Made by a program: the position numbers and the translations under genes. From Cupriavidus agavae (lineage in GTDB: Bacteria; Pseudomonadota; Gammaproteobacteria; Burkholderiales; Burkholderiaceae), in NCBI RefSeq assembly GCF_004217045.1, contig NZ_SGXM01000007.1, positions 1 through 64,000 on the forward strand: a stretch of 64,000 bases of DNA, in the 5' to 3' direction. Positions 40,130 to 62,410 of the stretch are shown here, piece after piece. Position 1 is the stretch's first letter. Each line of letters starts with the position of its first letter. The notes under the pieces are model-generated. The model did not search any database. It saw nothing but the letters and a program-made list of their open reading frames with translations, and was not told the DNA's origin.

Positions 40130-41317
40130 ATGCTGACAGACGCCCAGTGCAGAGCCGCCAAGCCCAGAGAAGGCATCTACCGCCTCAATGACTACAAGGG
40201 GCTATACCTAGAAATCAAACCCAACGGCATCAAGGCTTGGCGCTATCGCTTCAAGCTCAATGACAAGGCCTCGTGGTTCGCGCTTGGCGACTACCCTGGC
40301 GTGACGCTCGGTGAGGCCAGAGATAAGTGCGAGGCGGCGCGGAAGCTGGTCAGGGAGGGCATCAATCCCGTCCAGAATCGCCAGATCGAACGCATCAAGC
40401 GCGAGCAAGACTCAGCGAATACATTCGAGGCCATTGCCAAAGAGTGGCTGGCCCTGAAGGACTGGGAGGAAGTAACCAAGAAGCGCCGGCTCGACATGCT
40501 GGAGCGCGTGGTCTTCCCGTCGATTGGCAAGCTGCCGGTACGTCAGATCACTCCGGCCCATGTCCTCGACATTCTCAACAAGACGGTCAAGCGGGGTGCC
40601 CCCACCGTAGCGGCTGAAGCCAAGCGCACCATGTCTGGCGTGTTCGAGCATGCAGTCGCGACGCTACGGGCGGACACTGACCCCGTTTGGCCGGTTCGCA
40701 AAGCGCTGCCGCCCAACAAGACGCAACATAAGCGCGCCCTCGGCGCGGAGGAAGTCGGCCAGCTGCTGAACGACTTTGATGGCCATGGCGGCAACTTCCA
40801 GACCATCAAGGCCTTCCAGCTGATGTGGCTGACGCTCAGCCGCCCAAATGAATCCGTCCAAGCAGAGTGGGTCGAGTTCGACCTGGACAAGGCGCTGTGG
40901 ACCATTCCTGCACGTCGGATGAAGGCGCGGCGAGAGCACGTCGTTCCGCTACCGACTCAGGCGGTCGAACTCCTCAAGGCCATGCATCCAATCACGGGTC
41001 ACACGAAATTCGTTTTCCCGAACCGCGATGACCGCCAGCGGCCCATGGCCGACGCGGCCTTGAGACAGGCCCTCAAGAAGCTCGGTTGGGCAACCAAGTA
41101 CAGCCCACATGGCACGCGCACCACGGGCAGCACCCGGCTCAATGAACTGGGCTATCGGCCTGACGCCATTGAGGCCCAGCTTGCACATGCGGAGCCGAAT
41201 AGTGTTCGGCGCACATACAACCATGCCACCTACCTGGACGAGCGGCGAGTCATGATGCAAGACTGGGTGGATAAGCTGGACGGGTGGAAGACTTCGGCTC
41301 TCGGTCAAACTGCCTGA
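40130..41317 (+). CDS. int: P4-type tyrosine recombinase (integrase)
   Basis: Integrase of 395 aa. The N-terminal DUF4102-type arm-binding domain (residues ~1-90: GIYRLNDYKGLYLEIKPNG, ALGDYPGVTLGEAR) is followed by a core-binding domain and the catalytic domain with Arg238 (LSRPNE), His327/Arg330 (HGTR) and Tyr363 in RRTYNH. It integrates and excises the element to its right. AGGAG is upstream. Its 3' end overlaps drmC by 13 bp in convergent orientation. Confidence 0.93.
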   Translation: MLTDAQCRAAKPREGIYRLNDYKGLYLEIKPNGIKAWRYRFKLNDKASWFALGDYPGVTLGEARDKCEAARKLVREGINPVQNRQIERIKREQDSANTFEAIAKEWLALKDWEEVTKKRRLDMLERVVFPSIGKLPVRQITPAHVLDILNKTVKRGAPTVAAEAKRTMSGVFEHAVATLRADTDPVWPVRKALPPNKTQHKRALGAEEVGQLLNDFDGHGGNFQTIKAFQLMWLTLSRPNESVQAEWVEFDLDKALWTIPARRMKARREHVVPLPTQAVELLKAMHPITGHTKFVFPNRDDRQRPMADAALRQALKKLGWATKYSPHGTRTTGSTRLNELGYRPDAIEAQLAHAEPNSVRRTYNHATYLDERRVMMQDWVDKLDGWKTSALGQTA

Positions 41318-42066
41318 ACGGTCCTCGTGTTGACCAACGAAGTTAAATGGTCTTCAACTAGGCTTGGGATGCGTCCACCAGAAAGTAGTACGCCTGCTTC
41401 CATGTTCTTTGCCATGGCGTACCCGGTCAAATTGGCGCTGGTGATGAAGCACATCTTGCCATCCGCCACGGCAACTTTGGCATGTACTCGACCGTCGGCG
41501 AACTCATCTGTTTTGTTCAGCCAGCCGTAGAGCCGCGCAGCCGGAACAAGGTTTCGCATCTTGCCAATCACATCCATGGAAATGCTGCCTCCGTGCTCTT
41601 GTGACGATTCGAGCAGCATCGAGATAGACACCCCACGCCCGCTGGCGGCATTCAACGCGGCGACGATGCTGGATACGTCGTAAGCAACAAAGCTGGTGAT
41701 GAACAAGGTCGAATGAGCAGAATCGATCACCTGCAAAAGAGCCTGTTCAGTGCGCCGCGCTGAAACGAAAGGAGTGGTTGGCCCTGTCCAAACAAGCTCG
41801 GCGCATTGCTCACGCGCAGCCTTGGTGACGACATGGCTGGAAACGAGAAGCATAGACGCCAACTCGTCTGCGCCGATCGAGGTACTTCTCCATGCCTCGA
41901 TAAGGCGTTCGACGGCGGCAGCAGCCACCGGTGTGCCGAGCACGCCGGAAAGTGCTGTTCCAACCTTCTCTGGACCAGTCTGGCGTATCCGCGCAGCGAT
42001 TGCCTTGACCTTTTCAGGGGAAACCAAGCTCGCAATGACTGCAACGGCATCCAATAGAGCTTCCAT
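41305..42066 (-). CDS. drmC: DrmC, phospholipase-D-fold DISARM protein
   Basis: Protein of 253 aa with an N-terminal helical region and one HKD-type motif, His195-x-Lys197-x4-Asp202 (VHAKVAVADGKMCFITSANL). This is the PLD-fold component of DISARM. In studied DISARM systems DrmC is part of the conserved core, although it was reported as not strictly required for defence. It follows drmB directly (adjacent, no gap) and is the last gene of the operon. Confidence 0.9.
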   Translation of the reverse strand: MEALLDAVAVIASLVSPEKVKAIAARIRQTGPEKVGTALSGVLGTPVAAAAVERLIEAWRSTSIGADELASMLLVSSHVVTKAAREQCAELVWTGPTTPFVSARRTEQALLQVIDSAHSTLFITSFVAYDVSSIVAALNAASGRGVSISMLLESSQEHGGSISMDVIGKMRNLVPAARLYGWLNKTDEFADGRVHAKVAVADGKMCFITSANLTGYAMAKNMEAGVLLSGGRIPSLVEDHLTSLVNTRTVQAV

Positions 42067-43929
42067 TCACGAGCCTTGGAAGAACGCGGCGTCAGCACAA
42101 TCAAGCGTCGGCACGAGCAATGAGCGGTCCAAGTAGCGGTTCCCTCGCTCACATGAAGTCTCAGCCACCAACGAACAGGCGTGACATGCCGCTCCATGCA
42201 AGGAGCGATCCTTGCAGGGATCGTGTTCGGAGCAAAGTGGGTCCGATGAGCAAATCTTCGCCCGATCAAGGGCTTGTCCCAGCAAGCGGCCGAGGTTTTC
42301 CGGCTTGCCCAGATCGACGAGACCGCCTAGCGTCCCATCCGAATCGGCTGCCGCCGTGTAGATGAGAATGCCGGCCTGCGAGTCATCCCCATCCGTATCT
42401 GCGTAGATGCGCTCACGGATGCTGGCCGCGTTGTACCCACACTCCAGGGCTAGCTCACGGATCAACAAGTGCGACAGGGTGTGCAGCATGGCGTAACGTA
42501 TTCCCGGATAGCCATCGTCTGGGTTCAGGTGCCGCGCGTTTCGCCATCCACGATGACCACCTCGTAGCCTTTGGTCGAGCCGCTCAACCCCCTTTCGGCC
42601 CTCCCAGGTTTTGAGCGCCTGCTCATCGAACTGGATGAAAATTCCTTCGCCATGCACCTGATTGGCAGGCACCCAATCGGGTTTGCTGCGAGCAAGGTCG
42701 GCCATCGGGGCACGCTCATCGGGATCGGATGATTCCTCTGGCGCTTCCACCCGTGTGAACCCCAGCAGGGCGTTCACTTCCCGCAAGCGCTCCAACAACA
42801 ACACCCGAGCGATCAGCTTTTCTAGTCCGCCAGGCACCTCCACCTGCTTACTCAAAAAATGGGGGTAGTCGGTCGGGGGATTGGCCTCGGTCAGCACCGC
42901 CCATTCGGGGCCTTTGATGTCCGATTCGGCGACGGCGGCCTGCGACGTGCCCGACCGATGCGCCTCTATCGCCGCCCAGACGGCCTCTGGTTCATGCTTG
43001 TCGATCCCTTGCGCTTCTCCACGCTTTTTGAGTGCCTTGATGGTGCCCTTCAATTCCGAGATGTCTTCGACATCTGCGAAGTCGTCCCAGTAGTCGATGA
43101 CGATCTGATGGAGCGGTGACACGTTCGGCTGTGGAATCGCGAGCGCCGACACGGTGATCGGGAACCAACTGTTCGTCGCGCCGAGCAGCACTGCACGCGC
43201 CTCCTCATCACAATCGTGCTCGAACTGGTCGAGATGTGGATGTCGGCCACGGCAGGCCGGCAGATTCTCTTTGCCGATCTTGCCGAACGCATGTGCCATG
43301 CTTCGCGAGACGCCGCAGGTATCGCACTTCACCCACAGATTCTCGGTCTGCAAAGACGCTCCGCTTTCGAAGAAGCGCAAGGTGCCCTTGCAGTCGCTGG
43401 GACCGCCATGGACGAAGTAGTGCCAAGGGAAGTCATCCAAGTGGCCGTTCCGACAGGCCAGCAGAAAACGTGCCGGTACCGCATCGGCGTCCTTCGCTTT
43501 GTCGGCACCCTTGGAGCCCGTGCAACCGGCGTGCACGAAGCGCGTTCGTTCCGGCCGATAGCGGTTTTCTTTCAGCGTGAACAAGCCGCCGTCGTATGGC
43601 GCGAGCAGGCCGCACTTCACGCAACGCAGCCAGCGCGGAAAGGGGCGCACTGGCACGCCGATGTTGGCCTCGGCAGACCATACATCCGCCGGTTCCCCCT
43701 TCTGGAACGGCGGCATGCGCAAACTTTCCACCTGCTGACCCAACACTTTTCGCACGGCAGATAACAACCGCGCCTCTTGGATGGGCTGGCAGCGATCTTT
43801 TTCCCATCGATCGATGCCCAATGTGACCACAGACAAGCTGGGCAAATCGATCAATGCGCCAGGACCATAAGTCCACAGCAGTTGGCTTGGCCGCACCTCA
43901 CCGACTGGAGTTTTTTCTTGTATCGCCAT
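42067..43929 (-). CDS. drmB: DrmB, DUF1998 DISARM protein
   Basis: Protein of 620 aa with the C-terminal DUF1998 domain that defines DrmB. Several Cys clusters are visible: CVKCG near residue 100, CDTCG around 205, and a C-terminal CSSDPLCSEHDPC...CHAC set, suggesting bound zinc. In DISARM DrmB forms a complex with the DrmA helicase. The start MAIQEKTPVG, two bases after the drmA stop, is preferred; a GTG 39 bases upstream would overlap drmA. Confidence 0.93.
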   Translation of the reverse strand: MAIQEKTPVGEVRPSQLLWTYGPGALIDLPSLSVVTLGIDRWEKDRCQPIQEARLLSAVRKVLGQQVESLRMPPFQKGEPADVWSAEANIGVPVRPFPRWLRCVKCGLLAPYDGGLFTLKENRYRPERTRFVHAGCTGSKGADKAKDADAVPARFLLACRNGHLDDFPWHYFVHGGPSDCKGTLRFFESGASLQTENLWVKCDTCGVSRSMAHAFGKIGKENLPACRGRHPHLDQFEHDCDEEARAVLLGATNSWFPITVSALAIPQPNVSPLHQIVIDYWDDFADVEDISELKGTIKALKKRGEAQGIDKHEPEAVWAAIEAHRSGTSQAAVAESDIKGPEWAVLTEANPPTDYPHFLSKQVEVPGGLEKLIARVLLLERLREVNALLGFTRVEAPEESSDPDERAPMADLARSKPDWVPANQVHGEGIFIQFDEQALKTWEGRKGVERLDQRLRGGHRGWRNARHLNPDDGYPGIRYAMLHTLSHLLIRELALECGYNAASIRERIYADTDGDDSQAGILIYTAAADSDGTLGGLVDLGKPENLGRLLGQALDRAKICSSDPLCSEHDPCKDRSLHGAACHACSLVAETSCERGNRYLDRSLLVPTLDCADAAFFQGS

Positions 43930-43931
43930 AG

Positions 43932-46900
43932 TCAGTCTTCGTCCTTCGTTGCCGGACGAGGCTTCCATTCGTAGTCGTCCGAAATACGCCCCGTGTTCAT
44001 GATCAACTTCACGCCCGGCTCCACCTCGCGCATCGACATGGGCACGGTCCAGTTATCCCAAGCCTGAATGCCGGGAGACTTGATGAGGGCAACGGTCGTA
44101 TCTTTGTTTGGACCGCGCTTTTCATAGGCCAGCAGACGGCCGCCTTTGCTAACCTCCTTGGCCCACTCGTCTGCACGTTCCTTCAGCTCTTGTTGTGCGC
44201 GTGTCTTCGTGGATGCTTGCTCACTCACGTTCCAGGCGCGGTTTACCAGAATGCCGATAGCGTCCGTGATTTCCGGCCTGTTCGCCTTGTCGAGCCTCTC
44301 CGCGCCCTCATTCGGGCTGAACGCCCCATGTTCCAGACGCATCAAGCTCAGAAGTGCGCCAGTCAGCCCGCGATCCATGGCGCGCGGCGAGAACGGCGTT
44401 ACCGATTGCGCTTCGACGTGCTTGTAGAACGTCGCGTGGTAGTGCTCGAAAGTCTCGTAGTGAGACAGGTCTCGCGGGCGAGCCCAGGTCAGCACCGTAC
44501 AGACCAAGCCAGGGAATGATCGACCCACGCGACTGGTAGCCTGGATGTACTCTGCGGTGCCCTTGGGTTGCCCATTGACGGTCATCAAGCCCAGGCGGTT
44601 CACATCCACCCCGACGGACAGCATGTTGGTAGCCAAGACCACGTCGATGGCCCTGCTATCACCTTCCTGCCAGCGGCAAACGTACTTCCCTGCCGTGTCG
44701 TCGAACTGCGCCTTGAACTTCACCTCCAGCTCATCCAAGTACTTCGGAATGTCCTGGTTCGATACCCGTGAGGTCAGTTCCCGGATATTGCTGACACTGC
44801 GCTGTGCAAGTGCTGGTCGCTGCACCATGCTCATCTGGACGCGATAAGAACGAGTTTGTACGTCGTCCTCCGCCAAGCGTTTCATGCCCCCAAGTTCACG
44901 CAGCGAGTTGAAATAACCAACCGTGGTCATGTACGGATCGGCTGCGGCACCGAAGCGATCGAATAGTGCCTGGGCTGCCGTCAAGAACGCGGTGTACACG
45001 CGGATCAGCATTGCGGGACGGCTACTGCCCGGTGAGCACACCCCGACATAGCGTCTGCCTGGTTTGTCGTCGATGGCGCGTTGCACCGAGAAGAAGTTGT
45101 CTTCGACATCGAGGCCGGACGGTGGAAAGACCGCCACTCGCCGCATGAACACGTTGTTCACCTGTTGCTGTGCTTTGCGTACCGTCGCAGTCGATGCAAT
45201 GACTTTGGGCTTGACCACCCGATCATCTAGCCGCCAGCTACAGAGCTCATCTACGGCAGATTCATACAGCCCCACCATGGTGCCAAGCGGGCCGCTGATC
45301 AGGTGGAATTCATCCTGGATGATCAAATCGGGCGGACGTATGGGAGAGATGGCTTTGACCTTAGTCGCTGGCCCCGTCTTGCCAGCCGTATGGTTGCCAG
45401 TGCAGCTAGCACCGGGCCACAACAAGCCGTGGCGAGGACACTCCTCACTCACGCGCCCGAACAAAGTGCGAACCTGCCCCCGCCACGCCATCATGGCGAA
45501 CTTATCGACTGTCGCGATCATCATCGTCGGCGGACGGTGGTAAATCTCTTCATCGACGGTGAGAACGGGCAGACCGGGATGCGGCTGCTTGCTCGACTTG
45601 CCCTCGGAAAAATCGCAGCGCCCCTTTTTGTCGCCGCAATACACCAACGTCCGCCCGCCATCCTTGTCCTTTTCGACTTTGATGTCGCGGCCGGGGGCGA
45701 TTTCGGACCCGCACCAAGGGCAGCTCGTCAGTTGAGCCGGCGAGGCAAAGCTCGCCTTGTTTCGATCCGGATTGCGGATGGCCTCAATGGCTTGCGCACT
45801 TTCATCGGTCGTGCCGGGAGTGACTTTGTTGCCGACCCATAGCCCGATGGTGAAAGGCTCGGTGCCGAGCGACATGTCGCCCTTGGCAACGGCCTCTCTC
45901 CGCAATACTTCCATCGCGCAGATCAGGGCCGTGGCACGTTGGAACTGCTGCAAGGTCAGTAGCCGCAGGGTGTAGCGCATGACCACCGCCAGACCGCGAG
46001 AGCCGTCATAGCCACCCAGCTTGCCCTGCATGCGGCGGATTGCCATCGTGAATGCAGCGACGCCGAGATACGCTTCCGTCTTGCCGCCGCCAGTCGGGAA
46101 CCACAGCAGGTCAGCAAATGCTTCGACGGGCTGCGTTCGATCCGGATGCATCGGGTCGGCGAGCGAGGGTACCGACAGCAACAAGAAGGCAAGCTGGAAA
46201 GGACGCCAACTCCGATTTCTCGCCACATCGAAATCGGCCAGTGCCTTGTTCTCTCCACGGCGCATCGCAAGGCTATAGATGCTTCGTACACGCTGGGTTG
46301 CCATGGCGCGGTTGGCGAATCGGAACGCAGCAAGCGCCTTGTCGTCTCGACCTAGCGTCTCGATACCGCTTCGCAAGCGCGCCAATATTTCTTCGCAATG
46401 ATCGAGCGTTTGGCCCGCCTGTGCGTCGTAGCCGACCACCTCGGAGCCGATACGTGCCCGCTGCTCTGCGATCCAGGCAGCGTAATCCGTGGTCAACGTA
46501 TTCAGCGCCGCGACCAATCCAGCCTTGTCGATCTCGGCCAGGCGTTGCATGTCGAGCAAGCCGCTTTTGACCAGCTCGCGCATGGCCGGCCTGTCGGCTG
46601 GATCGAGCCCTGGCGTTTCGGTGACCTGGACCTCATATTGCGGCATGACGACCGTGCGTATTTCGGTTGCTAGCGTCACATCGGCCGCCGATTCGGCATG
46701 CACTGCGACGCCATGACCTACCGCGAACTCCACCCGGTTGCGATAGATCATCTCCAGCGCTTCGCGCTCCATGTCCATGCCAGTAGCGTCCAGCACCGGC
46801 TTGCGCCGGAAGATGGCCGTATTGCGTGAATCCGGCGCCGCGCGTACCGAAAGCTCGGGCTGGAACAGCCAAGCGGAATCGCGATTGGTCTCTGGATCGT

Positions 46901-47936
46901 CCTGCGCGTTGACGAGAAAGAGGGTCACCAATCGGTCGCCGTTGGCATTGGGGGCACGAACGTTGCCCTGCACTCGCACTGCTGGCCGATCGCCGTCTGG
47001 TGCGCGATGATGAATCGGCCCCTCCGTCAGCGGCACGACCAGCTTGCCACCACACGGAATACGCTGCCAGACCTTGGCTTTCTTGCCATCACGTTTCAGA
47101 TACTCGTGATCGTCGCGGGACAGCGGCTCATAGCGTCCCCAGCTCGCTTCCACTTCGATTCGATCCACGTCGCCTGCGACGCAAAACGTCATGCCGAAAC
47201 TGGAAGGGACCAGCGACTGGTTACTCGCGGCGTCGATCTCGTCGGAGGCATCCGTCTCGGGCTCAACCCGCCCCGTAGCACCGCCGAACTCCGCGCCGGG
47301 CTCATGCCGACCAGGGACAATGGGTGCATCGGGGACTTCTGGAGTTTCGTCGGCGAGTGGACCTTCCAACCCTTCGATTCCACCCTGTGCCGAGTCACGC
47401 GGGGCGAGCTTGCCAACCAGATACCGGTCGCGCACCCCCATGTCCACGATGTGCTCATGTGGTTCCCCTGCCGGCCCCAACAAGTCGTCCGTGACGGCCA
47501 GTTGTAGCAGTTCGCGAATGTAGGCGAGTTCGTGTGGATCGCTGTTTGCACCGATCAGCGGCACTCGGCCGATTGGTGTATGGAGCACGCCATCCAAGGT
47601 CGCCAGTAAGTCGCTCCATTGAACTCGTCCCACGCTACCTGAAGCCGGGAGCGAGAGTGTGGTCAGGCCCAGTGAAATCGGCTCACGCAACTGCAGCAGC
47701 CGGTCGAAATAGAGCGTAGTGGTCGTGAGGTCTGAACGAATCCGCAGTACGCGGCCCACGCGAGTGATACCGCCATTGCCATTCACTACTAGTACCCAGT
47801 GATCGGCTGCGACTGCCTGATACAGAGAGCGGTCGCCCGTCAGAGTGAGTTGAAATCGTGCGAACCGGCTGATTGTGGCGAGTCCAGCATCGACCGTGAT
47901 CCAGGCTTCGGAAGTATTCTGCATGCTCATCGTCAT
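43932..47936 (-). CDS. drmA: DrmA, DISARM SF2 helicase
   Basis: Very large superfamily 2 helicase, 1334 aa. Walker A is WFPTGGGKTEAYLG (Lys619) and motif II is DEFH (Asp875). Motif VI-like EYIQATSRVGRSFPG is present in the C-terminal helicase lobe. An inserted Cys group (SCPWCGSEI, CGDKKGRC) between Walker A and motif II looks like a zinc finger. About 500 residues precede the motor domain. The start codon directly follows the GHKL gene stop. Together with DrmB it is the conserved centre of DISARM. Confidence 0.93.
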   Translation of the reverse strand: MTMSMQNTSEAWITVDAGLATISRFARFQLTLTGDRSLYQAVAADHWVLVVNGNGGITRVGRVLRIRSDLTTTTLYFDRLLQLREPISLGLTTLSLPASGSVGRVQWSDLLATLDGVLHTPIGRVPLIGANSDPHELAYIRELLQLAVTDDLLGPAGEPHEHIVDMGVRDRYLVGKLAPRDSAQGGIEGLEGPLADETPEVPDAPIVPGRHEPGAEFGGATGRVEPETDASDEIDAASNQSLVPSSFGMTFCVAGDVDRIEVEASWGRYEPLSRDDHEYLKRDGKKAKVWQRIPCGGKLVVPLTEGPIHHRAPDGDRPAVRVQGNVRAPNANGDRLVTLFLVNAQDDPETNRDSAWLFQPELSVRAAPDSRNTAIFRRKPVLDATGMDMEREALEMIYRNRVEFAVGHGVAVHAESAADVTLATEIRTVVMPQYEVQVTETPGLDPADRPAMRELVKSGLLDMQRLAEIDKAGLVAALNTLTTDYAAWIAEQRARIGSEVVGYDAQAGQTLDHCEEILARLRSGIETLGRDDKALAAFRFANRAMATQRVRSIYSLAMRRGENKALADFDVARNRSWRPFQLAFLLLSVPSLADPMHPDRTQPVEAFADLLWFPTGGGKTEAYLGVAAFTMAIRRMQGKLGGYDGSRGLAVVMRYTLRLLTLQQFQRATALICAMEVLRREAVAKGDMSLGTEPFTIGLWVGNKVTPGTTDESAQAIEAIRNPDRNKASFASPAQLTSCPWCGSEIAPGRDIKVEKDKDGGRTLVYCGDKKGRCDFSEGKSSKQPHPGLPVLTVDEEIYHRPPTMMIATVDKFAMMAWRGQVRTLFGRVSEECPRHGLLWPGASCTGNHTAGKTGPATKVKAISPIRPPDLIIQDEFHLISGPLGTMVGLYESAVDELCSWRLDDRVVKPKVIASTATVRKAQQQVNNVFMRRVAVFPPSGLDVEDNFFSVQRAIDDKPGRRYVGVCSPGSSRPAMLIRVYTAFLTAAQALFDRFGAAADPYMTTVGYFNSLRELGGMKRLAEDDVQTRSYRVQMSMVQRPALAQRSVSNIRELTSRVSNQDIPKYLDELEVKFKAQFDDTAGKYVCRWQEGDSRAIDVVLATNMLSVGVDVNRLGLMTVNGQPKGTAEYIQATSRVGRSFPGLVCTVLTWARPRDLSHYETFEHYHATFYKHVEAQSVTPFSPRAMDRGLTGALLSLMRLEHGAFSPNEGAERLDKANRPEITDAIGILVNRAWNVSEQASTKTRAQQELKERADEWAKEVSKGGRLLAYEKRGPNKDTTVALIKSPGIQAWDNWTVPMSMREVEPGVKLIMNTGRISDDYEWKPRPATKDED

Positions 47937-52900: not shown

Positions 52901-54274
52901 TTCGAGTTCGGCCAACGTCACCAACGGCTTTTCCGCTTTCAGCGTCGCACCGATGTCCAGAGTGACATTGGCCGTCCGTTTGACCGTGCGTTCGAGCAGG
53001 CCCTCGTACACATAGCCGATCTGCTCCACGTCGAGCGCACGGTACGAGAGCGTGCGTCCCTGGAATTGCTGGATGGCCTCCAAGAGCAACAAGACCGTGC
53101 GGTTGTCGATGGGGAGTGGTTTGGCTGGATCAGTGCGCCATGTCGTGCCGGCGCTGCGCCCCTCCAGGAACGGGAAGCGATCCGGATCGAACAGAGAGCC
53201 GCCGAGCGCTGGCAGGCGCAGGTTTTCATGCTCGATTCCACCGAATACGGCGCGGAAGGTGGCGAGCAGGCGTGACCAAGCATCCTTGCGCTTCTCCAGG
53301 ATTTCCGGCTCTTCGACCACCAGTTGAGATCGCAGCGTCGAGATGGCGTAATGGGCTTCGTACTTGCCGTCTCCCATCAGGAGAAGTCCGCGCTCCTCTG
53401 CCGACAGCAAGAACACAAGCCGCATCATCACCGTCAGTGCGGCTTCATACAGTTCCGGCTCGGAGATGCCGCGCAAAAGTTCGCGGCCACGGTCTTGGTC
53501 GGCCTTGTCCAATGCCTGGATCAACACTTCGACCGCGCGGCGGACCTGATCGCCAAGGGCGTCGGTCACCTCGTCCTGGAACCTCAAGGACCGGTCGATG
53601 AGCGCCGGCAGCTTTGCGTCATCGTTGCCGAAGAAGCGACCGCATCGCAGCAGATGGACGAAAGCCTGCAAAGTGACGGGCTCTTGTACCCAGAGACGGG
53701 CATACCAGCTCGCAAAGCTGGTGACAGCTCCAACAGGCGCATCGACCAGCATCCATCGCTCACCGTTGGTGGCCAGGCCGATGCGGCAGCCCTTGGCCCG
53801 GCACAGTGCCACCATGCGCTCGGCGGGCGTGGCGGTCCAACCGTCGAATTTCTGCGCATCGTTCAGATCGACATCAGGTGCATACCGGTGGACGAACATC
53901 AGTGGCGCGTCGTCCTTTTGCTCATCGACCACGGCATAGTCCGGGGCGATGCCGACCCCGTGCTCAATCAGCGTGGTGGCGAGATGTGCTGCACACCACT
54001 CCATGCGCTTCAGTACGTCTCCCTTGCCGTCTTCATCGAGCTCCAGCGTGCGCGCCAACACCTCATCGATCCACGCCGTATGCAGCGCGTCGATCAGCTC
54101 ATCGCCGCTTTCGACCGCATCACACCATTCCTCATAGGTTTGTCGCAGCCGCTTGCGCTTGCCGGGATCTAGCTCTTCCAATCCTTGCGGGAAGACTTCC
54201 TTTAATACGGGCTCGGCCAGGAATGGGCCGGAAATCTCGATCAGCGAGAGCCAGTCTGAAGTTTGATGTGTCAT
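49901..54274 (-). CDS. drmMI: DrmMI, giant adenine-specific DNA methyltransferase
   Basis: Eco57I/PglX-like N6-adenine methylase of 1457 aa. SAM motif I is DPAMGSGAFLVQA (Asp597) and the catalytic motif is NPPF (Asn870). A long N-terminal region (~550 aa) precedes it and a target-recognition-like segment follows; the last ~90 residues look like a winged helix (LSFLSTHVGWHAKADILAAT). In class 1 DISARM DrmMI marks self DNA. PglX-type methylases of BREX are similar, but the drmA/drmB/drmC/drmD context decides for DISARM. Its start overlaps the upstream nuclease gene by 4 bp. Confidence 0.92.
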   Translation of the reverse strand: MTHQTSDWLSLIEISGPFLAEPVLKEVFPQGLEELDPGKRKRLRQTYEEWCDAVESGDELIDALHTAWIDEVLARTLELDEDGKGDVLKRMEWCAAHLATTLIEHGVGIAPDYAVVDEQKDDAPLMFVHRYAPDVDLNDAQKFDGWTATPAERMVALCRAKGCRIGLATNGERWMLVDAPVGAVTSFASWYARLWVQEPVTLQAFVHLLRCGRFFGNDDAKLPALIDRSLRFQDEVTDALGDQVRRAVEVLIQALDKADQDRGRELLRGISEPELYEAALTVMMRLVFLLSAEERGLLLMGDGKYEAHYAISTLRSQLVVEEPEILEKRKDAWSRLLATFRAVFGGIEHENLRLPALGGSLFDPDRFPFLEGRSAGTTWRTDPAKPLPIDNRTVLLLLEAIQQFQGRTLSYRALDVEQIGYVYEGLLERTVKRTANVTLDIGATLKAEKPLVTLAELESAKLDGKDRLVALLRERSGSSESRVRNDLAKPVDDALSERLLTACLGDTELLGRIKPYGHLLRTDPWGYPLVYPKGAFVVTTGSDRRETGTHYTPKSLTEAIVAETLTPIAYVGPAEGLPRAEWRLKSPAELLDLKICDPAMGSGAFLVQACRWLAERLAEAWSRAEDAGQVVSVDGEALPNGATQELLPRDAEERIIIARRLVAERCLYGVDLNPLAVELAKLSIWLVTLAKDRPFGFLDHNLRCGDSLLGIHRLDQITQLSMTPNAQGQLRLFGQNIEQAVREAIELRLHLREMPIRDIRDVEAMAHLDAEARRRLEVPESIADAFIGEVFTSTSNGPALGHKLASLSIRAGEAIEGDQEVFASLRRRASSALATDLPADKAARRPFHWPLEFPEVFALERGGFDAIVGNPPFLGGKRITGVAGTAFRDWLVTHIAEGRRGSADLVAYFFLRAWTLLHDGCSFGLLAVNTIAEGDTRQVGLEAMVGAGAVIYAAYPNEPWPGKAAVVTSRVHVYKGEWRGERSLLGRPAPYISAFLSNREEWSPKLLKANESIAYQGSIVLGMGFVLSQEEARRMLDADPKNVEVIFPYINGDDLNSNSEQRPSRWVINFWDWSEERARQYELPWKWISERVQPERQRRNDRGEYVLRKPLPERWWQYADKRPALYHAIGRGQNFERHPEDWSTQQGRSIALGTARLSKFLTFSQLPNDFVASDQIVVFAVPDVGWQTLLDSAIHHAWAWQYRSTRGVGVVGLRYAQTDLFETFPCPIIDAENRKILLELGERLHLTRKRLCTEISGGLTKLYNLYHEASGNVEELRSLHVEVDRAVAKAYGWGDISLGHGYHEVPYLPENDRVRFTISEPARAEVLRRLSELNRQRYEEEIVRREHAGSNPRVSTRVPRTNRAIDVAATQPSFDFEGATTTINGAMPATSILSFLSTHVGWHAKADILAATGITDGQWNTAIADLIASGKADRQGERRGARYSAKSQKTQTGEASE

Positions 54275-54930
54275 TCGGCTTCGTTTCCTTCAGTCGGCAA
54301 ATCGTCCCGCTCCTCGCGCAAGGTCAGGTTCATTCCATCCTGCGAGTTCTCCCATAGGTGACGGCACGTACATTCTTCGGTCTGTCCACGTGGAATTTCC
54401 AAGTAAGAGCCACATTCTTGGCACCAAGCGAACGAATACATACATGCACGACATTGACCGGCGAGCCACCAGAACAACAGGCCGTCTTCCGTGATCAGAG
54501 CCCCGTCTTGGTCGAGGACGATGCAGTCACGTTGGCAGCAAGGACACATCTCCCACTTGTCCGGTACGATCAAATCGAGAGCTTCTTCGAGAGAGAGAAT
54601 TCTCAGGTCACAGCCTGCATGACTTGCCTTGATCTCCGCAGGCGAGGTCCAGCCATTCGCCGCCACAATGACTGCCTTGCTAGCACCGACTGCATCAGCC
54701 AACGCCAAAACCGACTCGACCTCCCTGACATCGATGGGTTCAGAGTGGAATTTGGCATCGACGACGAGCTTGATGGAATGCCCCTTCGCTTCGAGCTCGA
54801 TCAGGACATCGATTTGGCGAGCGTGTCCGGTGACTTTGTCCGGGATCATCACGTTCCGGAGCACGTTGCCGAATCCATCCGCCTGCTCGTAGAGCACCGC
54901 AACCGCTTCCTGATATTCCTGCCAGTTCAT
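54271..54930 (-). CDS. Mrr-like restriction nuclease with zinc ribbon
   Basis: Protein of 219 aa. Residues ~1-120 show the restriction endonuclease fold of the Mrr type: Asp41 (QIDVLIE) and Asp58-Ala-Lys60 (LVVDAKFHSEPID), followed by ALADAVGASKAVIVA. Residues ~129-190 are rich in paired Cys (CPCC, CRAC, CQEC, CTC), likely zinc ribbons. It overlaps drmD and drmMI by 4 bp on either side, so it is an integral operon gene, yet no such gene is in the described DISARM core. It could cut modified DNA or act as an accessory nuclease. Confidence 0.78.
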   Translation of the reverse strand: MNWQEYQEAVAVLYEQADGFGNVLRNVMIPDKVTGHARQIDVLIELEAKGHSIKLVVDAKFHSEPIDVREVESVLALADAVGASKAVIVAANGWTSPAEIKASHAGCDLRILSLEEALDLIVPDKWEMCPCCQRDCIVLDQDGALITEDGLLFWWLAGQCRACMYSFAWCQECGSYLEIPRGQTEECTCRHLWENSQDGMNLTLREERDDLPTEGNEAE

Positions 54931-57900
54931 CTACTTCCCCCCTGGGCTGCTGACACAGGAACGATGAAGATGACGGCGACCGGGAAAGTGCGATCGACGA
55001 AGCCGGCAAAGCGCTTTTCGATCGCCTCGGTTTCTTGGGTACGTTCTTCCGGAATGCGGGCGAGTCGAGCTTCCAGGGCGGCGGTATCGCGTCGCAATTG
55101 AGTACGCTCGTCCTCAGAGAACAGGGAGAGCTGCTCGGGTTCTTCGTCTTTGCGGAGCTCTGCCCGGATCGCCTTTTCCAGTTCATCGAGCACAGTGGCG
55201 ATGTCTGCGATCTCTTTCTGCTTGCGCGTTTCGAGGGTGTTAGCCAAAAACTTCAGTCGGTCTTTCGAGCGGGCATCGACGGATTGGAGTACGGCCTCAC
55301 GCGCACGCTCGAACCGGACCCTCAACGCATCGAACAGTCCGGCATCAGCAATGATGGGTTCGCCACCGTCGAGCCATTGCTGAACGCGGGTCACGCTGTC
55401 CTCTCGACGGAAAGACTGGTCCCGCAGATAGCCCCCGGAGACGGTTAGTTCTTCGTGCAAGCGATGGTGATTGCCACCGGTAATCACTAGGCGGGAGACG
55501 ACGACCACGGCAGGGCCATCGACCAGACCGTCTGGTACGGCGCGCACCGTGACGCGATGCAACCTTTTCACGTCGTCCTGTGCCCAAATTTCCGCGCGCA
55601 GCAAGCGCAGGCACATCTGTACCAAGCGATGGTTGAGGTGGACCAGAACCACGTCATCGCGTCCGGCAGCGACCTCATGATCGAAGGTGATCGGGCGAGT
55701 GCGCTGCGTATGCGGATGACGTAGGCCTTCGGCGCAACGCGCCCAAGAGCCAGACAGAGCAGGCATCTTGAAGACGGTGCCGTTGAGTGCACCTTCGAGC
55801 TCGACCACTTCCAGCGGCGGTTTGTCGGCCAAGGCCAGGCCGGCTTTGACGGCCATGTAGATGTGGTCTGGGCTGAGGTGAAAATCCTGCTTCGTGGTCA
55901 GAAGGCGGTCGTGCAACTTGGCGACGCGATCCTTGAGCTCCCGTTCGGCGTGGACAAAACGCCGCGCCTTAGCGATCTTGGCTTCTGCGATACGAGTGTC
56001 GAGGTCTTTCAGAGAACCTTCGATCAAGCCGGACATCTGCGGAGCGATGACCGGGTTCACGCTGCCCATGTCGGCGCGCATCGAATCCAGCTTGCGCAGG
56101 GCCCGCAAGATGTCGTCGCCATGGCCGCCAATCGTTGCAGTGCCCGGCCCGCCGCCATCGACGGGATGCCAAATCAACACCTCTTTCTGCCGCTGCCCGT
56201 GGCGATCGATACGGCCGTTGCGCTGCTCCATCACATTGGGGTTGTACGGAATCTCAAGGTGGATGAGGCAGTTGCAATGATTTTGGAGGTCGATACCTTC
56301 GGATGCAGCGTCCGTAGCCAGCAGTATGCGAATGGGGGAGTCCTTGGGCGAAGCCTGGAACGCAGCCTTGACCTTCTCGCGTTCGCTTTGATCCATCCCG
56401 CCGTGCAAGATGGCCAAGCGTTCCGCACCGAAGCCGTGGCTGGCCAGGATTTCGTGCATCCACTGGTGTGTCGTGCGGTATTCGGTGAAAAGGATGACGC
56501 GCCGGTCGTTCCACTGTCCTTCCGGTTTGAGGCTGGACGACAGCCAGTCGAGTATGGTTTTGGCCTTCGAATCGGCTTGGTGCTTGGTTCGCTGCGCCCA
56601 CTGCTGCAGTTCTGCCAACATCTCTTGCTGCTCTGGCGTCAGCGGTGGAGCTTGGCAGGATGCTTCCTCGACTGCGTCGGACTGCGCTTCCTCGACATCC
56701 CGGTCATCGGCGTAGTCTTCTTCGATCCGAAGGATGGCTTTGCGCAGAATGCGCTCGGCCAACGGGTCTTTACCCCTCTTTTGCCTGCCCGCGGACAAGG
56801 TCGCAAGGTGCTTCTCCAAAGTGGCGGCGAACGCTGCCGGGGACGAGAACAGACGCTTCTTGAGGAGCTGATCGACGAACGAGACCCCGAATGACGACCC
56901 GCTGTCGTGGGCGCTCTGTTCGCGGCTGGCGCAGAAGTCGTTCAACTTGCTGTGCATCGCGCGCTCTTCCGGCGTATAGGCAACTTCGAGCGCCTGCAAC
57001 TTGCGTGTCGCATATAGCGGTTCGCCCTCGGCATCGACGAGCTCGCTCTTGAGGCGACGGATCATCACCTGCGCGAGTTGCTTCTCGTCCGGCAGGATGT
57101 TGCGAGCGAACCGCTGGTCGTCCAATAGTTCCAGCAGCGAGGTAAATGACTCTGTATAGCCGTTGTGCGGTGTGGCGGTCAGGAAAAGCCGGTGCTGGAA
57201 GTGAGGCCCGATAGAACGGATGAGCCGCGTGCGCTGACTCTCCAGGGCATAGTGAACGCTCGCGGCCGGCGCAACGTTGTGAGCCTCATCGACCACGAGT
57301 AAATCGAACTTTCGCGGGTAACCGAGATGCGGCGGCAGCACGTCGCGCAGGGCGCGCAAGCCTTCTCCGCCTTTGGCCCAGTCCATAGACGTGATCAGTC
57401 TTGGATAGGATGTCCACGGGTTGGCATGGATGCCGCGCTCACGCCGTAGCTGCTTGACGTAAGAGGTATCGACCACACGGAAATCAAGGCCGAACTTTTC
57501 GAGCATCTCCACACGCCATTTTTCTTGCAATGACGCGGGACATACGATCAGCACGGTTCGCGCCCGATGACGTAGCAACATCTCCTGAATGACGAGCCCG
57601 GCTTCGATGGTCTTGCCCAGACCGACATCGTCCGCGATCAGGAGGTTGACGCGGGCCATGTCGATGGCGCGCACCAATGGGTCGAGCTGGAAGTCCTCGA
57701 TGCTGACACCGCTACGGAATGGGGCTTGCAGAAAGCCCCGATCGGCGTTGGTTGCAGCGCCCCAGCGCACCGCGTCGAGGAACGCTTCCAGCGTCGAGGC
57801 TTCGTCTTGCCCGGTGATGCTCGGGAGACCAGCCCGCTCGATGACGGCAGCGCCGGGTTCGATCTCCCAGATCACTTCGAGCGTTTCGCCGAGGCCATCT

Positions 57901-58067
57901 TCGTCGATGGAAGACAGCGTGACGGCATTTTGTGGAGCCGTAGTCGCCTCCTGAGTGGAGGTGGCTACGTCGGCGACGACCCACTGCCTGCGCCGGACCT
58001 CGACCAATTGGCCAGGCTCGGGGCGAGCCGAGTACCGCTGGTTGGTTATTTCATTCGATGCTTCCAT
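54927..58067 (-). CDS. drmD: DrmD, SNF2-like DISARM helicase
   Basis: SWI2/SNF2 ATPase, 1046 aa, the marker of class 1 DISARM. Walker A is DDVGLGKT (Lys152), motif II is DEAH (Asp260-His263), and the C-terminal lobe has ATDAASEGIDLQ and QRNGRIDRHGQ (motifs V and VI). A long helical C terminus of ~350 aa follows. The start ATG (MEASNEITNQ) lies inside the end of vsr (17 bp overlap). Confidence 0.92.
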   Translation of the reverse strand: MEASNEITNQRYSARPEPGQLVEVRRRQWVVADVATSTQEATTAPQNAVTLSSIDEDGLGETLEVIWEIEPGAAVIERAGLPSITGQDEASTLEAFLDAVRWGAATNADRGFLQAPFRSGVSIEDFQLDPLVRAIDMARVNLLIADDVGLGKTIEAGLVIQEMLLRHRARTVLIVCPASLQEKWRVEMLEKFGLDFRVVDTSYVKQLRRERGIHANPWTSYPRLITSMDWAKGGEGLRALRDVLPPHLGYPRKFDLLVVDEAHNVAPAASVHYALESQRTRLIRSIGPHFQHRLFLTATPHNGYTESFTSLLELLDDQRFARNILPDEKQLAQVMIRRLKSELVDAEGEPLYATRKLQALEVAYTPEERAMHSKLNDFCASREQSAHDSGSSFGVSFVDQLLKKRLFSSPAAFAATLEKHLATLSAGRQKRGKDPLAERILRKAILRIEEDYADDRDVEEAQSDAVEEASCQAPPLTPEQQEMLAELQQWAQRTKHQADSKAKTILDWLSSSLKPEGQWNDRRVILFTEYRTTHQWMHEILASHGFGAERLAILHGGMDQSEREKVKAAFQASPKDSPIRILLATDAASEGIDLQNHCNCLIHLEIPYNPNVMEQRNGRIDRHGQRQKEVLIWHPVDGGGPGTATIGGHGDDILRALRKLDSMRADMGSVNPVIAPQMSGLIEGSLKDLDTRIAEAKIAKARRFVHAERELKDRVAKLHDRLLTTKQDFHLSPDHIYMAVKAGLALADKPPLEVVELEGALNGTVFKMPALSGSWARCAEGLRHPHTQRTRPITFDHEVAAGRDDVVLVHLNHRLVQMCLRLLRAEIWAQDDVKRLHRVTVRAVPDGLVDGPAVVVVSRLVITGGNHHRLHEELTVSGGYLRDQSFRREDSVTRVQQWLDGGEPIIADAGLFDALRVRFERAREAVLQSVDARSKDRLKFLANTLETRKQKEIADIATVLDELEKAIRAELRKDEEPEQLSLFSEDERTQLRRDTAALEARLARIPEERTQETEAIEKRFAGFVDRTFPVAVIFIVPVSAAQGGSR

Positions 58068-58545
58068 GCGATTGATCGGCTCCCTGTTCGGTGTGCGCAG
58101 CGCCTCTTGATGAGCGCGCTGCCTTCTTATGCTTTGCGTTGGTGACTTCCTGGGCGACGGTGGCCGCAGCTTCGACCGCAGACTCGTGACGCCAGATTCT
58201 CAGCACGGTCCATCCCGCCTCGCGCAGACGCTCGTTGGTGTCCGCATCGCGAGCCCGATTCGCTTCGATCTTCTGCTTCCAGAGCTCCGCGTTCCGTTTG
58301 GGCCAAGTGGCATGTATCGGGCAGCCATGCCAAAAACACCCATCGACGAAAACGGCGATCTTGAGGCCGGGGAAGGCAATGTCGGCGACGCGCCGAGGCT
58401 TCGACAACACCACGTAATCGACGCGGTAACGCAACCCGAGCCGGAAGAGTTCCCGGCGCAGCGCAATTTCCGCATCCGTGTCCTTTTGGCGCACCCGCGC
58501 CATGCGACGGCTGGCGTCTGCCGAGGATGGGGGTATGCGCGTCAT
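58051..58545 (-). CDS. vsr: Very short patch repair endonuclease Vsr
   Basis: Vsr-type nuclease, 164 aa. The catalytic block RVADIAFPGLKIAVFVDGCF (residues ~52-71, Asp55) followed by WHGCPIH is diagnostic. Vsr nicks at T:G mismatches made by deamination of 5-methylcytosine and is normally paired with a C5 methyltransferase, which here is the next gene upstream. The ATG at 58545 is used. The ~40 residues at the C terminus are longer and more polar than usual and overlap drmD. Confidence 0.92.
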   Translation of the reverse strand: MTRIPPSSADASRRMARVRQKDTDAEIALRRELFRLGLRYRVDYVVLSKPRRVADIAFPGLKIAVFVDGCFWHGCPIHATWPKRNAELWKQKIEANRARDADTNERLREAGWTVLRIWRHESAVEAAATVAQEVTNAKHKKAARSSRGAAHTEQGADQSHGSIE

Positions 58546-58566
58546 TCGATGCGTCCGCCCAAGCCA

Positions 58567-59610
58567 TCATTGCGCTGGCAGCGACTCAAGATGCCGCGAA
58601 ATGCTCTTCGCGATGGCGCGGCCGAGTTCGACGGGGACGGCGTTGCCGATCAATCGCCCGAGGGTGGTAAAGCTGACTTCGCCTTTCCGGGGAACGAACT
58701 TATAGGAGCGAGGAAAGCTCTGGAGGATGGCCGCCTCCCGCAACGAAATGGCACGGTGCTGTTCCGGATGCCCGAATCGGCCATTCCCGAACCCGTAGCA
58801 CTGCGTTGTCATCGTGGGAGAAGGTTTATCCCATTCCATGCGCCCATACACCCCAGGATAGGTTCGGCCGGTATCTGCCTTGTGGCAATCGGCGACCAAG
58901 TCCTCGGGCCAGTCCCGCCATGTGCCACCGGGGCGCGAATAAATAATGCGTCGCAGGTTTTTCTCGGTCAGGGATGCCGACGTGTGCAATTTATCCCGCT
59001 CCGCAGACTCGCCGGCCCGAAGGGGTTTCAGTCGGCCGATCGCTTGACGCACCGTCTTTGGCTTCTTCTGCATCGGCGGGATCATCTCGATGTCCCCGTG
59101 CCGCGACGCCAGTAGCACCATCCGTCGGCGCATCTGCGGCACCCCATATTGGGAGCTATCCACCACCTTGAACCACACCTTGTATTCGAGGCGTCTCAGC
59201 GTATCGACGAAATCGTGAAAGACCTCATGCTTCGCTACAGTCGGCACATTCTCCATGGTAATAATGTCCGGCTTGGTGTCTTCAGCGAGGCGGGCAAAAT
59301 GGTATAGCAAGCCCCATTTCCCTTCTTTGCCGTCAGTTTCGTAACGCTGTGCATATGTCGAAAATGGCTGACAGGGCGCGCAACCGGCCAAAATTCTTAT
59401 TTCGGAATCACCGAACAGCTTCGTCAATTCCTCACTAGTTAAATTTTTGACATCACATTCGATGAATTTCCCTGGATTGTTCGCTTCGTAGGGGTAACGG
59501 CATGCCGGGTCCAAGTCGATTCCTGCCATGACAGGAAGCCCCTCCAGAACGAACCCATGCGTGAGTCCGCCCGCCCCGCAAAACAAATCTACACAAGAAA
59601 TTCTCGCCAT
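58567..59610 (-). CDS. dcm: C5-cytosine DNA methyltransferase (Dcm type)
   Basis: DNA cytosine methyltransferase, 347 aa. Motif I ISCVDLFCGAGGLTHGF, motif IV GCAPCQPFS (catalytic Cys), motif VI MENVP, motif VIII QMRRRM and the C-terminal motif IX/X region (LGRLIGNAVPV) are complete. ATG 59610 is chosen because AGGA lies seven bases upstream; ATG 59676, which overlaps the HTH stop, would add 22 non-conserved residues. Its paired vsr follows. It might be the drmMII-like methylase of class 2 DISARM or an independent recruit; sequence alone cannot tell. Confidence 0.9.
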   Translation of the reverse strand: MARISCVDLFCGAGGLTHGFVLEGLPVMAGIDLDPACRYPYEANNPGKFIECDVKNLTSEELTKLFGDSEIRILAGCAPCQPFSTYAQRYETDGKEGKWGLLYHFARLAEDTKPDIITMENVPTVAKHEVFHDFVDTLRRLEYKVWFKVVDSSQYGVPQMRRRMVLLASRHGDIEMIPPMQKKPKTVRQAIGRLKPLRAGESAERDKLHTSASLTEKNLRRIIYSRPGGTWRDWPEDLVADCHKADTGRTYPGVYGRMEWDKPSPTMTTQCYGFGNGRFGHPEQHRAISLREAAILQSFPRSYKFVPRKGEVSFTTLGRLIGNAVPVELGRAIAKSISRHLESLPAQ

Positions 59611-59672
59611 ATCCGTTTCCTCAAGCGATCCTTCGGCACCAGCGTGCGGTGACCGCAAATCTTTAGATCTGC

Positions 59673-59879
59673 TCATGATTCGTTCGCCTTTATCGATGGC
59701 GCGTTATCCGCTGCACCGCCAGCCCGTACCCAGACATCCACATCTTCTTTTTTGAATTTCCAAAAGCGGCCGACTTTGTGCCCCGGCATCCCCTTGGACG
59801 TCACCCAGGTGTAAATGGTGTCTTTGGCTATGCCAAGGTAATCGGCGATTTCATCGACAGAGAGCCAGCGGTCGTCCAT
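59673..59879 (-). CDS. Small HTH DNA-binding protein (excisionase/MerR-like)
   Basis: Winged-helix HTH_17-type protein of 68 aa: WLSVDEIADYLGIAKDTIYT, then KVGRFWKFKKEDVDVWV. Such proteins act as excisionases or as small regulators. It is the first gene of the defence operon and the methyltransferase frame overlaps its stop. The ATG at 59879 is the only standard start before a TTG at 59909. Inverted repeats lie directly upstream, so a role as operon regulator is likely. Confidence 0.8.
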   Translation of the reverse strand: MDDRWLSVDEIADYLGIAKDTIYTWVTSKGMPGHKVGRFWKFKKEDVDVWVRAGGAADNAPSIKANES

Positions 59880-59981: not shown

Positions 59982-60848
59982 TTAGGCCTTGTCAGGATCA
60001 TTTGAGTTGGGTGCGGGCGGCTCCAATCCCAACCTAGCTTCCAGTGCCAGAACGCGAGCCTCCCGCGCTTCCAGCTCCTTGATCAACAACTGCGCTTCGA
60101 GCATCGTCTTGTGCGCGAATGAGCGAAGCTGACGGTCACGCTCACCAGTCCCACGCGTGATCTCTCGCGCACGCTGGAGCAGCGCGGCCTGCGCCGCCAG
60201 CCCGAACTTCACCCGCGTCCACTGGGCACGACTCATGCGCTGTCGGCCCGGCCCCAAACGAGCGAGACCAGACGGCCCGGCAACGTGCTCCCAGAATCGG
60301 TCCTGAAATGCGCGCATCGCAGTGTTGTAGGCAAGCCGTTGCTCCTTGGGTGTTTGAGCGCCCTTTGCCGCGCGGAAGCCGGGGTGCAAGTCCTTGACGT
60401 TGCCACCGTCAGGATTGACGACATAGAAGTGGAGGTGCGGGTGCGCCTCATCGGTGTGCTCGACCACGGACCGGAGGTGCTCACCGAATTCGGTTTGCAG
60501 CCACTCCAAGGCGCTTTGCTTCCAGTAGCTGTACTCAATGCCGCCACGTGGATACGACGCTACGCCTGCCAGCAGGACGGACGCGTCCTTTCGCAAACGG
60601 CGACCAACTGCATCACGACTGCGCGCATGGATGGCGCCAACTTCGGCTTCCAGCTCAGCCAGGCTGGGGCCATAAAGCAGGATGGGTGGCTTCGGTCTCG
60701 GCACATGCAAGCAGGCTTGCGGCTCGCGGCTGGCCTCAGCTATCACGTCGCGCACTGCCCATTTTCGATCTGCTCCCCGCGAGGTTTTCTTCGGTGAGTG
60801 CAGCGAATAGACCGATATGTGAACAAACTGGATGCCGCCCGTGATCAT
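59982..60848 (-). CDS. MobV-type (Pre/Mob) relaxase
   Basis: Relaxase of about 288 aa. The motif HTDEAHPHLHFYVV (residues ~131-144) matches the metal-binding HxDE-PHxH motif of MOBV plasmid mobilisation enzymes. It would nick the transfer origin and lead DNA transfer with a helper conjugation system. The C terminus is a charged helical tail. The ATG at 60848 (MITGGIQFVH) is chosen; the frame open upstream crosses the iteron-like region. Confidence 0.82.
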   Translation of the reverse strand: MITGGIQFVHISVYSLHSPKKTSRGADRKWAVRDVIAEASREPQACLHVPRPKPPILLYGPSLAELEAEVGAIHARSRDAVGRRLRKDASVLLAGVASYPRGGIEYSYWKQSALEWLQTEFGEHLRSVVEHTDEAHPHLHFYVVNPDGGNVKDLHPGFRAAKGAQTPKEQRLAYNTAMRAFQDRFWEHVAGPSGLARLGPGRQRMSRAQWTRVKFGLAAQAALLQRAREITRGTGERDRQLRSFAHKTMLEAQLLIKELEAREARVLALEARLGLEPPAPNSNDPDKA

Positions 60849-60883
60849 GGGGTACCGTCGCTGGAAACATAGTGACCGACTAT

Positions 60884-62386: not shown

Positions 62387-62410
62387 GGGCGTCTCCACTG
62401 ACCTTCATGA

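Follow-up and report, generated by a model that had tools for sequence, protein, structure and literature searches.

A 64,000-nucleotide stretch of the Cupriavidus agavae genome (contig NZ_SGXM01000007.1, positions 1 to 64,000; hereafter the window) carries a ten-gene operon on its minus strand (41305–59879) whose core, judged by profile and structure matches, is a class 1 DISARM (defence island system associated with restriction–modification). The gene order is a small helix-turn-helix (HTH) gene, a cytosine C5 methyltransferase (C5 methylase) gene, vsr, drmD, an Mrr-like nuclease gene, drmMI, a GHKL-nuclease gene, drmA, drmB and drmC. The SNF2-like helicase DrmD (54927–58067), the YprA-type SF2 helicase DrmA (43932–47936), the DUF1998/MZB protein DrmB (42067–43968) and the PLD-family nuclease DrmC (41305–42066; PLDc_2, with an HxKx4D motif) all exceed the curated NCBIfam cut-offs, scoring 1405.9 bits with NF038317 (cut-off 610), 1494.7 bits with NF038325 (950), 774 bits with NF038324 (240) and 249.5 bits with NF038319 (133), respectively. 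DrmMI (49901–54274), an MmeI/Eco57I-like adenine methyltransferase with Eco57I and MmeI domains, reaches 1895 bits with the PADLOC DrmMI profile; its top PADLOC profile is a type IIG enzyme-methyltransferase at 1969.7 bits. The solved DISARM pair 7s9v from the PDB is matched over nearly the whole length of DrmA (7s9v_A, 2235.6 bits, residues 7–1334) and DrmB (7s9v_B, 1095.9 bits, residues 14–632), and since the solved DrmB aligns from residue 14, the methionine at that position is the likely start. The PADLOC model PDLC02572, named DrmA, matches the window DrmD end to end (1754.6 bits) and is probably mislabelled. Class 1 DISARM is defined by the gene set drmD-drmMI-drmA-drmB-drmC, and all five genes are present here in that order. 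Part of this definition is given in two papers (PMC9142583, PMC12458937).

The genes are closely packed. Inspection of the DNA revealed 4-nt ATGA overlaps at the HTH–C5, drmD–Mrr and Mrr–drmMI junctions, and a further one at drmMI–GHKL if the GHKL gene starts at 49904; GHKL–drmA and drmB–drmC abut exactly, vsr–drmD and drmA–drmB overlap only if the longest downstream open reading frames (ORFs) are taken, and the C5 methylase gene is separated from vsr by a 21-base gap. An earlier reading of the letters, made without database searches (the sequence-only reading), had described ten minus-strand genes in one continuous, mostly overlapping or adjacent unit built on a class 1 DISARM core, with the added genes as parts of the operon. 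These points hold: the ORFs are real and identified by curated profiles and, for DrmA and DrmB, by 7s9v; the five core proteins are matched by NCBIfam or PADLOC profiles; four ATGA overlaps and two exact abutments join the unit; and the added genes lie in the same operon as the core.

The gene between drmMI and drmA (47937–50021, with a likely start at 49904, where GGGGAGG precedes the ATG) encodes a GHKL ATPase with a C-terminal nuclease domain. It is a full-length member of the BbrUII/HgiDII family of type II restriction enzymes, scoring 871.6 bits with NF050001 (cut-off 550). The ATPase residues E36, N40, D45, D64, G66, G68 and RKGxGK and the residues D536, E550 and K552 of the PD-(D/E)xK nuclease motif (D536...E550xK552) are invariant in 25 of 25 aligned rows; both sets of motifs are intact. 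In HgiDII restriction–modification (R-M) systems the cognate C5 gene usually lies directly beside the enzyme gene; here the C5 methylase gene belongs to the same operon and lies ~8.7 kb upstream, with DISARM genes in between. Because the two genes do not adjoin, we assign the protein to the HgiDII/BbrUII family by profile and do not classify the locus as a standard HgiDII R-M system. By its architecture we read the protein as paraMORC3-like: as described by Iyer et al. 2008 (PMC2292703), GHKL families including paraMORC3, which has a C-terminal restriction-endonuclease-fold nuclease, neighbour methylases, Vsr and helicases.

The second embedded gene, between drmD and drmMI (54271–54930), encodes an Mrr_cat nuclease (PF04471, E 9.3e-8) with a Cys-rich, zinc-ribbon-like C-terminal region. 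Residue D41, the D58xK60 motif and ten cysteines are invariant in 6 of 6 aligned rows. A comparison of this family with the PDB gave no match up to E 0.1, and full-length relatives outside DISARM were found in none of 273 other genomes of the class, in none of 72,556 plasmid records and not in IMG/VR. Outside DISARM, matches were confined to the N-terminal part and came from 2 of the 273 genomes, four plasmid records and no viral contigs. What the gene does in the operon is a guess from its family.

Upstream of drmD stand vsr (58051–58545; TIGR00632, 110.1 bits, cut-off 97.85; PF03852), the C5 methylase gene (58567–59676; PF00145, 194 bits; PADLOC MTase_II 293.7 and DrmMII 292.4 bits) and, as first gene, that of a small HTH_17 protein, a likely regulator (59673–59879; PF12728, 59 bits, cut-off 27). 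Among the 68 related loci with enough sequence in front of drmD, a C5 gene is present in 61 (one of them, in L094, unrelated), vsr in 30 (part of them fragments), an HTH gene in 29 and all three in 21. The sequence-only reading had counted the C5 methylase among five extra genes. It is better regarded as filling the DrmMII role, because 61 of 68 loci carry a C5 gene in front and because Bravo et al. (PMC9142583) describe DISARM operons in which DrmMI, DrmMII or both are accompanied by auxiliary genes.

To place the two embedded genes among relatives, we scanned 84,980 species, each represented by a single genome, with a DrmMI alignment and obtained at least 498 confirmed relatives; the best 80 by DrmMI similarity were kept, so close kin are over-represented. 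With four plasmid loci, one IMG/VR locus (L108) and the window, 86 loci were mapped by mechanical ORF calls, with unassigned genes of at least 90 aa; the slot analysis was run without L001–L011 and L016–L018. Extra genes on the operon strand were counted wherever both flanking genes were seen: the drmMI–drmA junction is occupied in 55 of 80 loci (short ORFs in L093, a 90-aa Methyltransf_35 piece, and L097, 107 aa, included), drmD–drmMI in 13 of 80 (including a 98-aa ORF in L091), drmA–drmB in 2 of 73 and drmB–drmC in 0 of 60. Genes of other defence types thus stand between core genes, on the same strand and at recurring positions. As the relatives' insertions favour particular junctions, the placement of the two genes between core genes is more than chance, in line with the sequence-only reading. 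We therefore find it hardly credible that the ten genes are ordinary defence-island neighbours lying side by side by accident. Defence genes do cluster in general, the surrounding island also carries an integrase gene and a relaxase-like one, and in four DISARM loci (L013, L049, L091 and L092) an HgiDII-type gene lies beside the core and outside the slot; yet chance would not readily produce the bias between 55/80 and 2/73 or 0/60, the common strand, the ATGA overlaps or the GHKL lineage found only in DISARM (see below).

The drmMI–drmA slot holds a series of alternative genes, which BLAST clustering groups into families; profiles were used to name one or two members per family, and representatives of most families match defence or restriction profiles. 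HgiDII-type GHKL-nucleases of one clade (clade A, see below) occupy it in 15 of 80 loci, and a separate relative in one more (L025). A distinct GHKL family of ~626 aa, which falls below the HgiDII cut-off (210.9 versus 550 bits for L022), is found in seven loci (L022, L024, L027, L028, L047, L053 and L085), a 473-aa GHKL protein paired with a Methyltransf_35 protein in 12, the PADLOC candidate PDC-S39 in eight, and PifA-like KAP ATPases in seven, or eight counting L108, whose KAP gene was assigned by size only. In six loci (L023, L026, L027, L035, L047 and L081) an additional SNF2 helicase resembling DrmD is accompanied by an unknown protein of ~541–572 aa; their DrmA is mostly of a shorter form (~1080–1290 aa where seen whole), and they possibly represent a two-DrmD DISARM variant. 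AspBHI-like modification-dependent nucleases occupy the slot in a further six (L033, L057, L059, L061, L063 and L073). These are methyl-directed according to their PADLOC name, and several of the operons also encode a C5 methylase; this may conflict with the DISARM self mark unless the target contexts differ. The drmD–drmMI slot holds the Mrr-like nuclease in seven loci, the window included, and Schlafen-type helicases, PDC-S41, in three.

We counted changes on the DrmMI tree for the 80 loci with the whole slot seen and compared them with 300 shuffles. Clade A showed 13 changes against 14.0 in shuffles (as low in 80/300), of which well-supported branches force at least 11; the 473-aa GHKL pair showed 11 against 11.3 (149/300) and PDC-S39 7 against 7.7 (70/300). 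KAP ATPases gave 8 changes of 8, AspBHI-like nucleases 6 of 6 and the Mrr-like nuclease 6 of 6, and every one of the 300 shuffles was as low. Clear clustering is confined to the ~626-aa GHKL family, with 5 changes against 6.8 and 1 of 300 shuffles as low. Pairs of related operons give the same picture. Roseomonas L037 and Nguyenibacter L040 are collinear from HTH to drmMI and from drmA to drmC at 86–87% DNA identity (one drmMI piece at 79%), whereas their slot contents are unrelated, an HgiDII-type gene in one and the 473-aa pair in the other. Acidovorax L062 and Thiomonas L030 share C5, drmD, drmA and drmB at 86–87% and drmMI at 79% identity, but differ in both slots and in the HTH gene. In the 15 loci with a clade-A enzyme, the distances of different core genes are correlated with each other at 0.73–0.93, also across the slot (drmD–drmA, 0.93), while those of the GHKL gene are correlated with core-gene distances at 0.25–0.56; several drmA rows in these comparisons are fragments. 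As far as these trees and alignments tell, the contents of the main slot turn over nearly at random, almost independently of core phylogeny, and the core is stable.

This turnover bears on the proposal of the sequence-only reading that the ten genes, with five extras as one set, form a new and fixed DISARM subtype. The exact ten-gene set was seen at no other mapped locus, L034 being cut inside drmMI. Three loci come nearest. Oryzomicrobium L023 shares the seven genes from HTH to GHKL, followed by another SNF2 helicase gene and one of unknown kind ahead of drmA; L034 matches it at 100% DNA identity up to the end of its contig, from HTH into drmMI. The L023 and L034 records are titled Oryzomicrobium and Azoarcus, which suggests recent transfer between genera or contamination. 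The other two are Burkholderia catarinensis L020, which has the Mrr-like gene with the GHKL gene replaced, and Acidovorax L062, which has no vsr called and an extra KAP ATPase. In favour of the sequence-only reading, L092 carries C5, Mrr, vsr and an HgiDII-type GHKL gene, though in another order, with vsr and GHKL behind drmC. Among the mapped loci vsr, HTH, Mrr and GHKL are each found with and without the others. The ten-gene order is therefore only partly recovered in other genomes, and the operon is best described as one combination of swappable modules, because no second mapped locus has the same ten genes and the accessories vary singly. The sequence-only reading had itself named relatives generally lacking the extra genes, and random scattering of those genes, as grounds for giving it up: relatives without the combination are indeed the rule, but the positions are not random. 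Besides the tightness of the operon and the seven genes shared in the same order with L023 and, up to its contig end, L034, a further hint favours a fixed set: 4 of 6 loci with the Mrr-like gene also have an HgiDII-type GHKL gene, compared with 16 of the 74 other loci (Fisher p 0.03, uncorrected for relatedness), a possible link between the two embedded nucleases. Against the near-random changes in the main slot and the single occurrence of the set among the mapped loci, a fixed subtype finds no support and appears very unlikely.

The slot GHKL enzymes themselves form a lineage apart. In a quick tree with SH-aLRT values, built without five distant GHKL rows, seven family-B rows, six weak IMG/VR rows and near-copies, 15 of them, the window's included, fall into one fully supported clade (clade A). 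None of the 38 rows labelled free-standing, which still contain some distant GHKL proteins (L180–L182, L184) and L018, lies inside it. Identity within clade A is 71–79%, and the nearest free-standing matches seen are at ~50% or less. Free-standing relatives are typically arranged as R-M pairs: in IMG/VR a C5 gene lies within 500 bases in 41 of 46 new loci with a GHKL ORF above 550 aa (counting near-copies and distant rows), and DISARM genes are absent from all 50 new IMG/VR GHKL loci. They also occur on plasmids, and the HgiDII-type family is rare, with 2 of 397 other genomes of the phylum and 2 of 273 of the class. On one Haloplanus plasmid (L018), a C5 gene is paired with an HgiDII-type GHKL gene, and genes resembling drmA, drmB and drmC lie ~7.7 kb from them on the opposite strand.

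A clade found only in DISARM, encoded between drmMI and drmA, in a slot also used by two further GHKL-type families, could instead be a part of the DISARM machine: an ATP-driven clamp or looping factor in the style of MORC and MutL, its nuclease directed by DrmA/DrmB, and no independent enzyme. Iyer et al. 2008 (PMC2292703) propose DNA looping for MORC and paraMORC proteins that are encoded together with helicases in R-M operons. A fixed machine component would sit poorly with a clade that is absent from the slot in 65 of 80 loci and turns over without the core following, and the match to a restriction-enzyme equivalog well above its cut-off, with both nuclease and ATPase motifs invariant, points to an enzyme in its own right. 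We consider the clamp explanation rather unlikely, though not negligible.

The C5 methylase of the operon belongs to the same family as the methylases that partner free-standing HgiDII-type enzymes; M.HgiDII is reported to methylate GTCGAC (PMC5867850). The wide stretch between C5 motifs VIII and IX is unsuitable as the recognition domain, since DNMT1 alignments show it to be partly conserved across C5 enzymes, and a narrower stretch was compared for that reason. In this narrower stretch, C5 enzymes of clade-A DISARM loci and free HgiDII partners share an identity of 0.53 (catalytic part 0.48), against 0.25 (catalytic part 0.27) with five outside C5 enzymes, an excess conservation that is smaller than over the wide stretch. 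L016 and L117 were left out of the main C5 alignments, L094 out of the clade-A group and L052 out of the group without GHKL. In the C5 tree, enzymes from loci with and without GHKL are interleaved, with ~17 changes, a number that is approximate because some rows without GHKL are truncated loci (L034, L075, L082 and L095). The same co-occurrence test as for Mrr found no association of vsr with the clade-A/HgiDII-type GHKL gene, and with the C5 enzymes interleaved as well, joint movement of C5, vsr and GHKL as one R-M set is rejected. At four other loci (L127, L128, L130 and L132) the same C5 family is paired with DUF262 and MAE_28990/MAE_18760 HEPN genes, which means that a single type of methylase is used with several effectors.

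Taken together, we regard it as reasonably probable that the operon is a class 1 DISARM platform whose docking slots hold an HgiDII/BbrUII-type enzyme and an Mrr-type nuclease, with the C5 mark as self mark. The constant part would be C5 methylase-drmD-drmMI-drmA-drmB-drmC, and defence genes would dock in the same orientation as the operon, mainly at drmMI–drmA and more rarely at drmD–drmMI, often overlapping their neighbours. Related operons would trade these slot genes, for which homologous recombination within the conserved genes on either side is the simplest route. The C5 methylase would mark host DNA, and the HgiDII-type enzyme would cut its target site where the mark is missing. Invaders that escape would be engaged by DrmAB, whose ATPase rate in vitro is reported to be lower on 5-methylcytosine (5mC) DNA than on unmethylated DNA (Bravo et al., PMC9142583). 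The HTH protein would regulate the operon. Vsr enzymes usually repair T:G mismatches arising from 5mC deamination, and the Vsr encoded here would do the same at the sites of the C5 mark. A broader proposal, tentative and in our view at somewhat less than even chances, is that DISARM is a general docking platform in which the C5 mark is a shared password read by the helicase complex and by exchangeable effectors. The effector in question, held just as tentatively, would be a DISARM-specialised HgiDII-type enzyme without its own methylase beside it, so that a type II restriction enzyme may live on the methyl mark of DISARM itself. If this were true, exchange of slot genes would re-arm the system with self-recognition unchanged, DISARM would be a platform with defined docking sites, and its variable 'auxiliary' genes would be explained. 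The operon would also make it possible to test directly whether distinct restriction machines rely on a common methyl mark, and genes at the drmMI–drmA junction could be searched as defence candidates.

The operon lies in a GC-poor island with a G+C of 0.53–0.63 per 2-kb step, against mostly 0.65–0.72 in the host. At the left edge, where G+C falls from ~40 kb, sits a plus-strand tyrosine integrase gene (40130–41317; Phage_integrase and Arm-DNA-bind_3) whose 3' end overlaps that of drmC. The right end appears at ~69–70 kb on the same contig, where G+C is back to 0.72. No word of 14 bases or more is shared as an attachment repeat between the left edge (39.7–40.3 kb) and 42–84 kb, and no tRNA gene was found in the window or at 60–84 kb. 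Behind the operon lie a relaxase-like gene (59982–62632) and, by eye, a small AlpA-like ORF; the island may be an integrative mobilizable element. Near its far end, a 384-aa gene (L134:1786–2940) begins in an Mrr-nuclease-like manner by eye and has no Pfam match. In megablast searches with the operon, the sole match among plasmids was a Microvirga drmA (71%), and E. coli genomes gave no match. For the first 24 kb of the window, the closest annotated plasmid-set DNA is that of Cupriavidus necator H16 (82.6% over 15%), which by inference puts the host in the order of the Burkholderia relatives.

Embedding of defence genes in DISARM is already published and is not new here. Some 70 ShdA homologues inside DISARM-like operons are reported in the Shield paper (PMC10270631), and embedded defences are treated in a 2024 preprint by Payne et al., as cited in PMC12629846 and PMC12255303. 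The strongest new findings of this work are that insertions prefer particular slots, that the main slot turns over almost at random while the core stays stable, and that one lineage of a type II restriction enzyme is confined to DISARM. In a literature search mostly outside subscription papers and bioRxiv preprints, we recognised no listed paper as describing an HgiDII-type enzyme in DISARM or per-junction counts. As in the embedded defences described in those sources, defence genes lie here within the operon of another system; the difference is that the embedded gene encodes a type II restriction enzyme and that insertions are counted per junction and turnover is followed by trees and collinear pairs. 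Like other class 1 DISARM systems, for which DrmA/DrmB have been solved (PDB 7s9v, 7s9w), the operon has all five core proteins, with a C5 methylase in the DrmMII role, and it differs from them by two embedded nuclease genes, vsr and the HTH gene. ARMADA and other YprA-helicase systems, as described in PMC12458937, similarly combine a YprA helicase with a BrxHII-like helicase and a PglX-like methylase, whereas DrmA and DrmB are split in the window and match class 1 DISARM profiles and structure. With the HgiDII/BbrUII R-M systems, in which a GHKL and restriction-endonuclease-fold enzyme is encoded beside its C5 methylase, the operon shares the enzyme family and its motifs, the C5 family and a co-conserved recognition region; it is set apart by the ~8.7 kb between its methylase and enzyme genes and by an enzyme that belongs to a clade found only in DISARM.

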